From assembly GCA_902563505.1 (NCBI GenBank), contig CACEXK010000001.1, positions 62,001-126,000 on the forward strand: a stretch of 64,000 nucleotides of DNA, written 5' to 3'. The notes under the pieces were generated by a model that was given only the letters and a program-made list of their open reading frames with translations, made no database searches and was not told the DNA's origin. Shown one piece after another: positions 41,579 through 46,667 of this stretch. Position 1 is the first letter of the stretch. Each line of letters opens with the position of its first letter. Source of the stretch: an uncultured Alphaproteobacteria bacterium. GTDB taxonomy: Bacteria; Pseudomonadota; Alphaproteobacteria; Methylaequorales; Methylaequoraceae. A program made the position numbers and the translations under genes.

Positions 41579-42898
41579 CTACAACTTTTCATTTCTCTCA
41601 AAACCTCTGAAACTTTTAAAACGCGGAAATCTTAAACTCCAATGATCACCCTCTTTGCTTTTACTAATAGAGTCAGCTCTGACCTCAACAATCTTTCCTA
41701 TTAGCTGTTCTTTATTTCTCCAAAATTCATCTCTTTGTTCATCTGTAAAACCAGATCCAATATTTAATCTGAAAAACTTTTTTTCATCTTCACCTTCTGC
41801 AATTAGAGCTCCTAATTTTCCTTTATTTCTTCCTGTTCCTTCTTCATAATCTTTAACTTGCAATGATACTTCAATAAATGGCTTCGACTTTAGCCAAGTT
41901 GTAGACCTCTTGCACTCATAGAAAGAATCTGGATCTTTAATCATTATACCTTCATAACCTTTCAATAGGGAGTCCCGATTGAAATTCTGGAATTCCTCCA
42001 TTCCCTGATTTGTATCTAGATTTATTAATTTTGGTTCAAGTAGTTTAATATTAATTGAGTATTGAAAATATTTTACATAGAGTTTCTTTAGTTTAATTAT
42101 TCTTTCTGAATATTTACATTCATAAATACCCTTTTTAAAGTTTTCTAAAGGTAAACAGTCAAATAAGAAAAGTTTTGCATCATCATTTTGCACAGAATTC
42201 TTCCTGTGTATTTGTTTCATTAATTCCTGAAAATTTTTACTTATTATTTCACCATCAAGTACAAAAGGTCTATCTATTTCATCAAAATTCATTAATTCTT
42301 TAATTTCATTTTTTATATGTTCAAAATTATTTAATTCTTTTCCATTTCTACTAAAAATATCTATATTTCTAGATGGATAAATTATTAAAATTGCTCTGAC
42401 TCCATCTAATTTTATTTCGATCATTTTTTTTCCAATAATTTTTTTTTTATGTGATTCAGAGTCCTGAGCAAGTTGACATGAAAAAACTGGAATCAAATAT
42501 TGTTGGAAGTTATTTTTTTTTGCAACATTATTTATTGTTCTTTCTGATAGCCCACACCTCATATCTTTTTGTAAGATTCTTTTAAAAAAAAAATTCCATT
42601 CATCTTTAAAGGATTTTTCCATAACTACCCTAATTTCATCTCTTGCTGCATGTCCGGTAAGGTTTCTTTTTACCAAGTTATCTGCCAAATTTTTAAATTC
42701 TTCCCATCTTATACCTTCACCATCAAATTCTGATTCGGGTACTTTCTTTACCCCAAATGTTAATAATTTATTATAAGCTAATGACATACCAGAAAAAAAA
42801 ATATCATTATTATTTTTCATTTCTTTAAGCAATACATCTTCTTTAAACAACCTTGAGCTAGAGGAACTTAGAAGTTTTATTAGATCAGAATTATTCAT
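41579..42898 (-). CDS. ATP-dependent DNA ligase, T4-phage-like
   Basis: The 439-aa ligase has adenylation motif I KLDGVR (Lys163), motif III RPFVLDGEIIS, IIIa LFLFDCLPL, IV EGIMIKDPD and V TWLKSKPF, then an OB-fold with GALIAEGEDEKKFFRLNIGSG and SLRFPRFKSFRG. The region before motif I (QKDMRCGLSERTINNV...IPVFSCQLAQD) resembles phage T4-type ligases more than LigD or LHR-linked bacterial ones. Bacteria use NAD-dependent LigA for replication, so this is likely for repair. It overlaps a Cas4-like nuclease gene by 8 bp; the pair probably acts together. Confidence 0.88.
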   Translation of the reverse strand: MNNSDLIKLLSSSSSRLFKEDVLLKEMKNNNDIFFSGMSLAYNKLLTFGVKKVPESEFDGEGIRWEEFKNLADNLVKRNLTGHAARDEIRVVMEKSFKDEWNFFFKRILQKDMRCGLSERTINNVAKKNNFQQYLIPVFSCQLAQDSESHKKKIIGKKMIEIKLDGVRAILIIYPSRNIDIFSRNGKELNNFEHIKNEIKELMNFDEIDRPFVLDGEIISKNFQELMKQIHRKNSVQNDDAKLFLFDCLPLENFKKGIYECKYSERIIKLKKLYVKYFQYSINIKLLEPKLINLDTNQGMEEFQNFNRDSLLKGYEGIMIKDPDSFYECKRSTTWLKSKPFIEVSLQVKDYEEGTGRNKGKLGALIAEGEDEKKFFRLNIGSGFTDEQRDEFWRNKEQLIGKIVEVRADSISKSKEGDHWSLRFPRFKSFRGFERNEKL

Positions 42899-43625
42899 TA
42901 ATTTTATTCCTTAAATTAAAATAATAATTACAAAATTTACATCTTTTTGAATATTCAGGAACTTTGTCTTCATTTAAAACTTGATAGATATTCATGATAG
43001 TTGGTTCAATCCAACTAAAATCAAGTATTTTCTCAAAAATTGATAAATCAAAGGTAACATTTTGATTCATATCTCCATTATTTGTAAGTGCATTTATAAA
43101 AATTAGCGCACCGGTTTTAGACATATCTAATGAATTTTTATTTAATAAAAATGTATAAAATGACAATTGCTTCCAATATCCTGGCCATATTTCGTCATAA
43201 TTAATTTTATTTTTTTTTGAAGTGCTTTTTATGATAATACTATTATATTTTTGTGTTTCATTGTCTAACCAAATATCATCAATTATCCCATATAGTAGGA
43301 TGTTACTTTCTTTATGTAAATAAGTTACGCCTTTGAAGGGATTTTGCCATTCGTTTAATTTAGGGTGGTCGTAAGGGGTAAGGTTCCTATTAAGACTAAT
43401 TATCTGTGGATGCGCTTGTTGATTGATTCTACATTGATTTAACTCAAATTTTAATTGACCAACAAAACGATTATTCATTACCAGCGGAGTTCCATGTGGC
43501 CTTCGGATTCCAAATCTTTGATCTACATAAAAACACCTTTTACATTCAAAATACAGGTCAATTTTAGTCCTACTCATTTTAAAGGGTTGAGAATTATTCT
43601 TTATGTAAATATTTTTTTTAAACAT
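42891..43625 (-). CDS. PD-(D/E)XK nuclease-like protein with Cas4-type cysteines
   Basis: A 244-aa protein with the layout of RecB/Cas4-like nucleases: Cys28 and Cys31 (ECKRCFYVD), Cys229 and Cys232 (RCKFCNYY) for a likely Fe-S cluster, the first acidic site in GIIDDIWL (Asp116/117), and a QLSFYTFLL motif IV-like helix. The expected D/E-x-K is SIIIKSTSK (Lys133), where relatives usually have a D two residues before Lys; here it is Ile131. Catalysis may be lost or shifted. Met17 is an alternative start that fits relatives better. Coupled to the DNA ligase gene. Confidence 0.72.
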   Translation of the reverse strand: MFKKNIYIKNNSQPFKMSRTKIDLYFECKRCFYVDQRFGIRRPHGTPLVMNNRFVGQLKFELNQCRINQQAHPQIISLNRNLTPYDHPKLNEWQNPFKGVTYLHKESNILLYGIIDDIWLDNETQKYNSIIIKSTSKKNKINYDEIWPGYWKQLSFYTFLLNKNSLDMSKTGALIFINALTNNGDMNQNVTFDLSIFEKILDFSWIEPTIMNIYQVLNEDKVPEYSKRCKFCNYYFNLRNKINE

Positions 43626-43733
43626 TTATTGATTATTATAAAATATATTAATTTTACTTTCAGTTTTTTAATTATATTTACAAGAAATAAAATTAAAATT
43701 GACATTTTTTATTTTTTTGAAATTATCAAATTT

Positions 43734-44120
43734 ATGCATCGTATATTTTTTATTTTGTTATTTCTTTTGTTGCCAAATTTAGTTTTTTCTTCAAAATTAA
43801 ATCTTATTTGTACAAATAATTATATAGACGCTAAAAGTCTTGATGTGAAAGATTTATTTTTAGTTATAGATACACAAAAAAAAAAAATAGAACTTGGGGG
43901 ATTGATTTTTTTTCCAGAGGAAATTAAAGAAACTGAATCTAATATTTCTTGGAAAGCCTCAGATGTAAAAATTTACGAAGACTCTAATGGAGATATTTCT
44001 GGAATCATCGGGAGATATTCTGGCCAATTAGTTTTGAATTTTGAGAGATATGTTGATGCTAAAATTATATCACTTGTGTTTAATTGCCAAAAGTTTCAAC
44101 TTAATGAGAAAAAGTTTTAA
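43734..44120 (+). CDS. Secreted protein, unknown function
   Basis: A 128-aa product. I chose ATG 43734 because it begins with a clear signal peptide (MHRIFFILLFLLLPNLVFSS); the open frame further upstream overlaps the nuclease gene in antisense and looks like run-in. The mature part of about 108 aa has two cysteines (LICTNN, FNCQKF) that may bridge, and beta-strand character. No family recognised. It contains a 12-A run (43876-43887) encoding Lys. Its stop overlaps the convergent SPL-like gene by 4 bp. Confidence 0.6.
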   Translation: MHRIFFILLFLLLPNLVFSSKLNLICTNNYIDAKSLDVKDLFLVIDTQKKKIELGGLIFFPEEIKETESNISWKASDVKIYEDSNGDISGIIGRYSGQLVLNFERYVDAKIISLVFNCQKFQLNEKKF

Positions 44121-45070
44121 TTCCTGAATATTTTTTTTTTATCAATAAATTTTCTTAATTGATTTTCATAAATTCCAATATTTTTAAATTTTTCATTTTC
44201 TTTATTTATGAAAAAATATTCATTAGGTCTTAAAGAAGAAAATTTCTCAAAAAACTGTTTAGGCATTCTAAACTTACCAAGTGTAACAGAGTGAATTCTT
44301 CTTGTTTCAATTTTATCAAAAATAAATTTGAAAAAGTCATAGATTATAAAATTATTCGAATTATCAATTATTAATGGATCAAATCTTAAACCAATGTTCC
44401 ATCCCAATTTTTGTAATTCAACTATAGCTTTTATTCTTTGAGTTAAACTTGGTGTTTTATCCTCAAATTTCTTAACTATATGCTTTGGGTTTAAACTAAA
44501 TGCAATTACAATATTATTCATAGGTTTTATTTGTTTAAATATATCTATTTTCGTACTTTTAGTTCTAACCTCTAAAATACCATTTTTAATTTTTTGAAAT
44601 TTAATTAAAAAGAAAGATAAAAAATTTGTTATTTTTTCTAATGCTAGGCTGTCACAGTCGTATCCTGAGAAAAAACAGATAGTTTTTTTTGATCTTGAAA
44701 CCTGACTTTTAATTGCGTTAAAAAAATCCAAGTAATTTACAAAGATTACATAATGTGCAGAGTTAAACATTCCTTGGAGAAAACAATATTTACAGTCATA
44801 AACACAATTTAACATATGGGAAAAATAGAAATTCTTACTGTAACCTATGGTAAATTTTTCTGGGGCATTTAATAAAAAATTTTGTTCCTTTTTTGCTAAA
44901 ATAATTGAAGGTTCAGCTTTTTGAATTCTAAAGTTTTGGTTTTTCGGATTAAAAACTTGGTTATAGTTTTCACAATAAATAATTTTTTTATAATTAATTC
45001 TTGCTAGAATTTCTTTTGTATTTGGATAATCTTTTATTTTTTCTTCAATGTATATTACATTAAATTTCAT
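44117..45070 (-). CDS. Spore photoproduct lyase-like radical SAM enzyme
   Basis: A 317-aa radical SAM protein. The cluster motif CxxxCxxC is Cys89, Cys93, Cys96 in LNCVYDCKYCFLQG, followed by the SPL-like YVIFVNYLDFF and FSGYDCDSLALEKIT. Known SPL repairs the spore photoproduct thymine dimer with a 5'-deoxyadenosyl radical. This organism is unlikely to make spores, so the homologue may repair another thymine lesion. It overlaps the nucleosidase-like gene by 4 bp, at the end of an eight-gene run rich in sulfur and SAM functions. Confidence 0.82.
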   Translation of the reverse strand: MKFNVIYIEEKIKDYPNTKEILARINYKKIIYCENYNQVFNPKNQNFRIQKAEPSIILAKKEQNFLLNAPEKFTIGYSKNFYFSHMLNCVYDCKYCFLQGMFNSAHYVIFVNYLDFFNAIKSQVSRSKKTICFFSGYDCDSLALEKITNFLSFFLIKFQKIKNGILEVRTKSTKIDIFKQIKPMNNIVIAFSLNPKHIVKKFEDKTPSLTQRIKAIVELQKLGWNIGLRFDPLIIDNSNNFIIYDFFKFIFDKIETRRIHSVTLGKFRMPKQFFEKFSSLRPNEYFFINKENEKFKNIGIYENQLRKFIDKKKIFRN

Positions 45071-45858
45071 AAGCTAATTTTTTCTAGTATTAATTTAATG
45101 TTGTATTTAGCATCTTTAGAATAATCAAGAATATTATGATCAAACTTTTGATATTTACTATAATATAGTTTTATTAATTTTGATAATTCGTGTTTTTGAT
45201 AAAAAGTTGGTTTTAATTTTTCAGTCAAAGACTTAATTATTTTTTCAAGCTTTTGGTTTTCTTCATAATATTCTTCCCAAATTTTTACTACTTCATTTTT
45301 AAATTGATCAATATTTTTTAATTCTTTTTCTATTAATTTATAAATTTGTTCATCATTATTGAAATCAATTTTATTTGATTCGTTGTCTGAAATAATTTTA
45401 AGTGAATGTATTAGCTCTTTTGAAGAAAATTTACTTGAGCTTTCAAAAAAACCACTGGATTCCATATCCGATAGAAGATTATTTAATTCTTCATTTGGTT
45501 TGCTATAAGTTACACAAGATTTATGGTCTAATTTAAAATTACTTATTATATGAGGAAAAAACAATTTACTAGAATCAAAGTCAATTATTTTATTAACTAG
45601 AAATAATTTGCCAATATCCATGTTTTTAATACCGGCAAGCCCAAAATTTATCCATATTTGGTTTTTTTTTTTTCCTAATTCAAAAAAAGTATGACTTACA
45701 CTCAAAGCAGATGAGACTTTACCTATTTTACTTACAGTAAGCGAAATATTATTATTTTGAAAGATTTGAAATTCACATGAATTATTATTCTTTTTCAGTT
45801 TGTAGAAGTCTATCAAGGGCCTTGCTTCTTTGATTGTTGCAACAATAAAATGAATCAC
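45067..45858 (-). CDS. MTA/SAH nucleosidase-like protein with helical C-terminal extension
   Basis: The first ~165 of 263 residues look like a purine nucleosidase/phosphorylase: IVATIKEARPL with Glu11, NFGLAGIKNMDIG (71-83), DMESSGFF with Glu133 and the catalytic-type Asp158 in IISDNES. Such enzymes remove adenine from methylthioadenosine, S-adenosylhomocysteine or 5'-deoxyadenosine. About 90 further charged, helix-prone residues form an extension not typical of E. coli MtnN. It overlaps the radical SAM gene by 4 bp, so clearing 5'-deoxyadenosine is an attractive role. Confidence 0.72.
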   Translation of the reverse strand: MIHFIVATIKEARPLIDFYKLKKNNNSCEFQIFQNNNISLTVSKIGKVSSALSVSHTFFELGKKKNQIWINFGLAGIKNMDIGKLFLVNKIIDFDSSKLFFPHIISNFKLDHKSCVTYSKPNEELNNLLSDMESSGFFESSSKFSSKELIHSLKIISDNESNKIDFNNDEQIYKLIEKELKNIDQFKNEVVKIWEEYYEENQKLEKIIKSLTEKLKPTFYQKHELSKLIKLYYSKYQKFDHNILDYSKDAKYNIKLILEKISL

Positions 45859-45866
45859 GATAAATT

Positions 45867-46667
45867 TTATTTGATAAATTTAAGCGTCATTCTATCACTT
45901 TCACCAATTTTAGAATATTTTGATTTATCTTTTTCACCAAGTCTATATGTAGGAGGAAGTGTCCATACACCTTTTTCATAATTTTTTGTATCTTTGAGAT
46001 TAGAATTAATTTCTGATTTGTTAATAAGCTTGAAACCTTGGTTCTCGATAAAATTTATTAAAAAAGACTCTTTAACATATCCGCCTTTATAGTTAAAAGG
46101 GGATGATTCATCGGCTCTATGTTGAACTACTCCAAGAATGCCACCTTTTTTCATTGATCTATATATCGAGCTATAAATTTTCTCAGCTTTGCCTCTATCT
46201 AACCAATTGTGAGAGTTTCTAAATGTAAGAACAATATCGAATTCATTTTTTTTGCTAACAATTTTATAGTCTTGGTTTATAGAAATATATTTAATTTTTC
46301 CAAATTTATTTTCATTTTTTAAGAAATATTTCTCAAATTCATTTTGGATTTTAGTGATTATATCAACGGCAAATTGAGGTGGGTCATACTTGGCGACATA
46401 ATAATTATTCGTGTTTCTCATGTAATTTGCAAGTATTTCTGTATACCAACCCCTTCCTGGTGTTATCTCTAGGATTTTCTTTTCTCTTGACAAACCAAAA
46501 AAGCTCAAGGTTTCAATTGGGTGTCTATATTTATCTCTAGATTTATTATTTGTTTTTCTGTATTTGTTTTCGACTGCGAGGGAAATTAATTCGTCATTAT
46601 TTACATCACCAGAGAACGAATAATTAAAAAAAAATAATATAAGTATTACTGAAAGGCTAATTTTCAT
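45867..46667 (-). CDS. Predicted secreted class I SAM-dependent methyltransferase (COG4798-like)
   Basis: A 266-aa protein with an apparent signal peptide (residues 1-19, ending NYSFS) followed by a Rossmann methyltransferase core: KILEITPGRGWYTEILANYM as motif I, FDIVLTFRNSHNW as the post-II region and MKKGGILGVVQHRA as the strand-5 region. The group is known as predicted methyltransferases with leader peptides, and the source of SAM outside the cytoplasm is unexplained. It lies 8 bp before the nucleosidase-like gene. Acceptor unknown. Confidence 0.78.
   Translation of the reverse strand: MKISLSVILILFFFNYSFSGDVNNDELISLAVENKYRKTNNKSRDKYRHPIETLSFFGLSREKKILEITPGRGWYTEILANYMRNTNNYYVAKYDPPQFAVDIITKIQNEFEKYFLKNENKFGKIKYISINQDYKIVSKKNEFDIVLTFRNSHNWLDRGKAEKIYSSIYRSMKKGGILGVVQHRADESSPFNYKGGYVKESFLINFIENQGFKLINKSEINSNLKDTKNYEKGVWTLPPTYRLGEKDKSKYSKIGESDRMTLKFIK

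Follow-up and report, generated by a model that had tools for sequence, protein, structure and literature searches.

A spore photoproduct lyase-like radical SAM protein and an extended nucleosidase, conserved as a pair across distant bacterial groups, suggest an undescribed chemistry of two steps rather than sunlight-damage repair

The window, the whole stretch of 64,000 nucleotides that was analyzed, comes from a genome of 1.27 Mb in 24 contigs whose nearest named relatives are uncultured Alphaproteobacteria, including HIMB59-MED-G10. On its reverse strand lie the gene for an MTAN-like nucleosidase (45067..45858, 263 aa, GTG start) and, downstream of it, the gene for a radical SAM protein resembling spore photoproduct lyase, SPL (44117..45070, 317 aa, ATG start). 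As the sequence-only reading had described, the two genes overlap by four bases, ATGA (45067..45070). The nucleosidase carries the catalytic residues Glu11, Glu133 and Asp158 and ends in a C-terminal helical extension (residues 196-263; 45070..45273, reverse strand) beyond the region that aligns with solved MTANs. The SPL-like protein contains a CxxxCxxC motif formed by Cys89, Cys93 and Cys96 (44783..44806, reverse strand) and a GYDCDS motif (residues 136-141; 44648..44665, reverse strand) that places Tyr137 at the position of the SPL H-donor Cys140. The order nucleosidase to SPL-like gene was identical in all 22 usable loci (the window genome included, and a 23rd locus, interrupted by a contig end, left out), with the 4-bp overlap in 17 of them and a gap of -8 to +2 in the other five; the overlap is therefore not due to chance.

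Eight bases upstream of the nucleosidase gene, on the same strand, an ORF (45867..46667) encodes a class I methyltransferase-like protein with a signal-peptide-like start; its position is kept in 7/7 HIMB59-type loci, and whether it belongs to the module of the pair is uncertain. Downstream of the pair, ORFs for a Cas4-like PD-(D/E)XK nuclease and an ATP-dependent DNA ligase (41579-43625, reverse strand) overlap by 8 bp, and the nuclease-ligase order recurs downstream of the pair in all seven HIMB59-type loci. An ORF on the opposite strand (43455-44120, forward) stands between the pair and the nuclease/ligase genes in the window; its 3' end shares 4 bp with the end of the SPL-like gene, and translation from an internal ATG gives a small protein whose start resembles a signal peptide.

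We scanned GTDB contigs for relatives of the SPL-like protein and kept the best 80 of 554. The search was performed partly with a pattern containing the GYD motif, which matched 24 of 28 SPL-like genes located beside nucleosidases found by HMM. The nucleosidase gene was directly upstream on the same strand in 38 of these best 80 loci, at a distance of -8 to +34 bases in 37 and of 223 bases in one. Linked loci comprised seven of HIMB59 type and others from gammaproteobacteria, Uabimicrobium (a planctomycete), Omnitrophica, Thermoanaerobaculia and Opitutaceae, and the 42 unlinked loci belonged mainly to Methylococcales by title. In genomes with unlinked loci, the nucleosidase was present elsewhere, one per genome, in 33/33 examined (one match being partial), a count that took 33 of the 42 loci and left out L073, L081, L082, L085, L095, L096, L101, L123 and L124. 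Among the kept records, Methylobacter marinus A45 is one that has both genes, and other titles name a 'Baikal-deep' genome and symbionts of a sponge and of Gigantopelta aegis, a deep-sea vent snail. A record titled as a Klebsiella pneumoniae MAG (L077) also has the pair; this label is probably wrong.

Co-occurrence was further analyzed in three sets of genomes. Among 96 genomes of relatives (the window genome included), 27 had the nucleosidase and 23 the SPL-like gene, and each of these 23 had both; of the four genomes with only the nucleosidase, three have it at contig ends (G014, G020, G024) and G003 has a weak 45-residue match. In the order of genome G466, 35 of 53 genomes had both genes, three only the nucleosidase, none only the SPL-like gene and 15 neither (Fisher p 1.3e-10, over genomes that are not independent). 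The three nucleosidase-only genomes were G548 (77% complete), G588 (a match with one internal stop) and G577 (99% complete); the last (locus L168) keeps the nucleosidase and a GT2 gene, lacks the SPL-like gene and has a symporter next instead, which counts against the reading that we favor below. The pair was scarce in 397 evenly drawn proteobacterial genomes, where the SPL-like gene was present in two and the nucleosidase in three, the third match (G289) being partial at 51 bits. The presence of both genes in every unlinked genome examined and the absence of SPL-like-only genomes among the 53 rule out a chance adjacency. The earlier proposal that the nucleosidase is a dedicated partner, for which co-occurrence across genomes had been set beforehand as the refutation test, thus finds good support both in linkage (38 of the best 80 of 554) and in co-occurrence (33/33 where the genes are unlinked; 35 against 0 in the order of G466), and we conclude that the two genes very probably form a functional pair.

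The structural model of the nucleosidase (pLDDT 95.3) showed a PNP/MTAN fold: over model residues 1-195 it aligned with Arabidopsis MTAN (Z 22.0, rmsd 2.4, 186 residues aligned) and with the compact Chlamydia CT263 (4qas; Z 20.6, 174 aligned). Sequence likeness to MTA/SAH nucleosidases was weak (6aym, E 1.1e-6), and the protein scored below the family cut-offs (PF01048, 13.3 vs 25.1 bits; PRK05584, 19.7 vs 169); 24 of 34 relatives matched PF01048 at E <=0.1. In profile alignments, Glu11, Glu133 and Asp158 fell on the Glu/Glu/Asp of solved MTANs, which we take to be catalytic there. These three residues, and likewise the three cysteines of the SPL-like protein, were in place as originally named; the former were invariant in a 15-sequence alignment and in 34/34 members of a multi-phylum alignment (in which numbering is one lower, since the start codon was omitted), and the CxxxCxxC motif was present in 38/38 aligned SPL-like proteins, the members of the 34- and 38-sequence alignments being selected from the available sequences. 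Of the approximately 90 extra helical residues initially described, the helical tail was confirmed in the model and its size was revised to nearer 72: the stretch past SDN has 104 residues compared to 32 in 1zos, and GxAG and ME are separated by about 39 residues fewer than in 1zos, as counted from the alignment. A loose tail motif, [WYF][HRKQSY][FLC][TS], was found in 27/34 nucleosidases, the window protein not among them, and a search of the tail for known domains yielded, besides PF01048, no Pfam family in more than 3 of the 34 members. The tail is absent from two relatives, G053 (~188 aa) and G002 (201 aa), which also counts against our favored reading.

The SPL-like protein belongs to the SPL superfamily of radical SAM enzymes, passing PF20903 with 69 bits (cut-off 27). 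Its model (pLDDT 87.5) has the SPL fold and aligned with Geobacillus SPL over 301 residues (Z 27.7, rmsd 3.0), the next-best different protein being RlmN (Z 13.4). However, the window protein fell far short of the SPL equivalog cut-offs (TIGR04070, 80.8 vs 400 bits; TIGR03886, 36.7 vs 437.55 bits), and two relatives reached ~69-70 bits with TIGR03886. In the profile alignment with Geobacillus SPL, the H-donor Cys140 is matched by Tyr137, Ser142 by Cys139 and position 98 by Phe97; the aligned chain is a Y98F variant, and Tyr98 of the wild type was taken from the structure title. The H-donor position was occupied by tyrosine in 38/38 members, Cys139, two residues further on, was present in 35/38, and residue 97 was phenylalanine in 38/38, with Tyr97 in 3/14 sequences of the HIMB59 alignment. 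According to PMC9850924 and PMC5682303, the H-donor cysteine of SPL is proposed to give its hydrogen before the cascade that recovers AdoMet, and its Cys141Ala variant forms side products. Because this cysteine is replaced in the SPL-like branch, its members probably do not recycle SAM as SPL does, and SAM would be consumed. Tyr137 or Cys139 could take over the role of the missing H-donor.

Additional genes frequently accompany the pair. A GT2 gene was next upstream of the nucleosidase in 22/38 linked loci (0/7 of HIMB59 type and 22/31 of the others), with a DSP-type phosphatase between the two in six loci, and an SDR gene directly followed the SPL-like gene in 12/38 linked and 41/42 unlinked loci, both among the best 80 of 554. 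Of 29 nucleosidases in the order of G466, 28 had the SPL-like gene downstream and 26 a recognized GT2. The GT2 proteins constitute one family, 44-85% identical to the first, whose closest solved structure is chondroitin synthase, and their matches in 70 chosen genomes split cleanly, with 27 genomes at >=362 bits and the rest at <=181. By this measure GT2 was present in 18 of 33 unlinked-pair genomes and absent from 15, and it was found in 5/9 other pair genomes (planctomycete and Omnitrophica among them), in 3/3 nucleosidase-only genomes and in G053; it was sought and not found in 15 pair-lacking controls and nine HIMB59-family genomes. The specific SDR was present in 6/51 chosen genomes, adjoining the SPL-like gene in all six, and absent from the other 45; in the window genome neither GT2 nor the specific SDR was found. 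Thus, the nucleosidase and the SPL-like protein are the core of the module and GT2 and SDR are accessory, and since both are missing from many pair genomes, any later steps are not general.

An assignment of GT2 as an arsenosugar transferase was rejected (TIGR04283, 74.5 and 71.1 bits vs a cut-off of 182), and a sodium/proline symporter that adjoins the pair in some gammaproteobacteria and scores above the PutP cut-off was taken as a bystander. An Rrf2-type regulator adjoins the unlinked nucleosidase in two Methylococcales-type genomes (L143:2326-2811, L145:908-1477), and perhaps reflects iron-sulfur control.

From the observed folds, catalytic residues, linkage, co-occurrence and cassette partners, we infer SAM consumption, an adduct, an order of steps and the kind of substrate. 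The SPL-like enzyme would cleave SAM and act on a substrate that is probably other than a DNA photolesion, and the nucleosidase would then hydrolyze adenine off a SAM-derived nucleoside formed by its partner, most likely a 5'-deoxyadenosyl adduct of the substrate and otherwise plain 5'-deoxyadenosine. Loss of adenine from an adduct would leave a ribosylated product, which in many lineages may be reduced by the SDR and glycosylated by GT2, in the order known for HpnH, HpnG, a reductase and HpnI. As a whole, from SAM cleavage through the adenosyl adduct and adenine removal to later reduction and glycosylation in many lineages, this mechanism is tentative, with a chance that we put just short of even. 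The modest similarity of the SPL-like model to the adenosyl-adding MqnE (6xig, Z 11.5) counts against an adduct.

The closest rival is that the SPL-like enzyme modifies its substrate with conversion of SAM to 5'-deoxyadenosine, and that the nucleosidase is dedicated to hydrolyzing this inhibitory by-product; removal of 5'-deoxyadenosine had been raised from the sequence and is a possible, putative activity. The MTAN fold and catalytic residues are retained, linkage and co-occurrence fit equally well, and radical SAM enzymes are inhibited by 5'-deoxyadenosine (PMC8102628), such that clearance accounts for the core pair nearly as well as an adduct does. However, further PNP_UDP_1 proteins were found in 30/33 chosen pair genomes, among them the window genome with an MTAP-like gene, and Synechococcus MtnP cleaves 5'-deoxyadenosine, according to PMC8102628; a second general scavenger is therefore less needed. 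Clearance also gives no reason why one radical SAM enzyme should have its own co-inherited nucleosidase, and it leaves GT2 and SDR unexplained, though both could act on the other product. Because of these other PNP-superfamily proteins, and because a reductase and a glycosyltransferase fit the processing of a product, we favor the adduct and regard by-product clearance as possible, if on balance unlikely.

That the genes are co-inherited neighbors with no joint function is improbable. Their patchy distribution, with the SPL-like gene in only two of the 397 evenly drawn genomes, is consistent with such a history, as are the similar distance correlations of all cassette pairs (nucleosidase-SPL 0.83, nucleosidase-GT2 0.81, SPL-GT2 0.86), which would be expected of any co-inherited block. 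It is, however, opposed by the retention of both genes in all the unlinked genomes examined, and by the finding that the SPL-like gene never occurred without the nucleosidase, either in the 53 genomes of the order or in the 23 positive genomes of relatives.

Repair of UV-induced thymine lesions in surface water, as originally suggested, would have the SPL-like enzyme act on DNA photoproducts with the nucleosidase in support. The main point in its favor is the nuclease and ligase downstream of the pair in the window and in every HIMB59-type locus; furthermore, the SPL fold extends over the full length, PF20903 is passed, and both alphaproteobacterial SPL-like proteins examined have a basic pI (9.6-9.7). 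Nevertheless, this suggestion is not supported: the H-donor cysteine is replaced by tyrosine in 38/38 aligned members, scores lie far under both SPL equivalog cut-offs, and the record titles include deep-water and symbiont sources. Moreover, between the pair and the nuclease and ligase lies an ORF on the opposite strand, these two were labelled in 0/73 loci outside the HIMB59 type (where neighbors were scanned in part), and five other SPL-like members have a pI of only 6.0-8.2. We therefore consider UV-lesion repair very improbable. Anti-phage defense was dismissed, as PADLOC matched each window protein once and weakly (E 0.0049 and 0.0045) and neither protein of L060.

Altogether, conservation of the pair across distant bacterial groups argues for a two-step chemistry of an undescribed kind and against sunlight-damage repair. 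In its most specific form, an enzyme of the SPL fold, hitherto linked to DNA repair, would attach a 5'-deoxyadenosyl group to either a metabolite or a macromolecule, and the extended nucleosidase would strip adenine to give a ribosyl product that is reduced and glycosylated in some lineages, as part of a widely scattered and undescribed biosynthetic module; we regard this as possible but doubtful. A full-text literature search, judged by titles and the starts of abstracts, found no description of the pair and met neither the SPL-fold branch nor the extended nucleosidase, a weak absence because subscription papers lie mostly outside its coverage. The analysis joins separate 'SPL-like' and 'MTAN-like' annotations into one conserved module across several phyla and marks an SPL-fold branch without the repair cysteine. 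If the nucleosidase uses its partner's product, the module would lead to an unknown compound or modification, testable in cultured methanotrophs.

Precedents exist for combining a radical SAM enzyme and a nucleosidase. In the futalosine pathway, MqnE adds an adenosyl group and the nucleosidase MqnB then acts, the same logic as proposed here; futalosine hydrolase models were among the weak matches of two relatives, and MqnE itself is structurally distant from the SPL-like model. Compared to MTA/SAH nucleosidase (MTAN, Pfs) and CT263, the nucleosidase shares the fold and the catalytic Glu/Glu/Asp and differs from 1zos in its shorter middle and longer tail, as well as in scoring under the MTAN cut-offs. 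The SPL-like protein resembles spore photoproduct lyase (TIGR04070, PF20903; Geobacillus 4fhc-4fhg) in its whole-length fold, its CxxxCxxC motif and its PF20903 match, but has Tyr137 for Cys140, mostly Phe97 for Tyr98 and a score well below the cut-off, and it is paired with a nucleosidase, with no spores; the spore photoproduct lyase family protein (TIGR03886) belongs to the same superfamily, but by score the SPL-like protein falls outside that family. The window genome has, in addition, a separate HpnG-like nucleosidase gene (224 aa; L133, G000:C2:175000-175416), and the ORFs beside it are, by their look, presumably squalene-hopene cyclase and HpnH, which would make a second radical SAM/nucleosidase set there. 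In the assembly of hopanoid side chains, HpnH is followed by HpnG, then by a reduction and by the glycosyltransferase HpnI (PMC12583986). The SPL-like protein represents a different radical SAM branch from HpnH, and its adduct would be a presumed one; like HpnH and HpnG, however, the pair combines a radical SAM enzyme and a nucleosidase of the PNP superfamily that are inherited together, and reduction and glycosylation are proposed to follow in many lineages.
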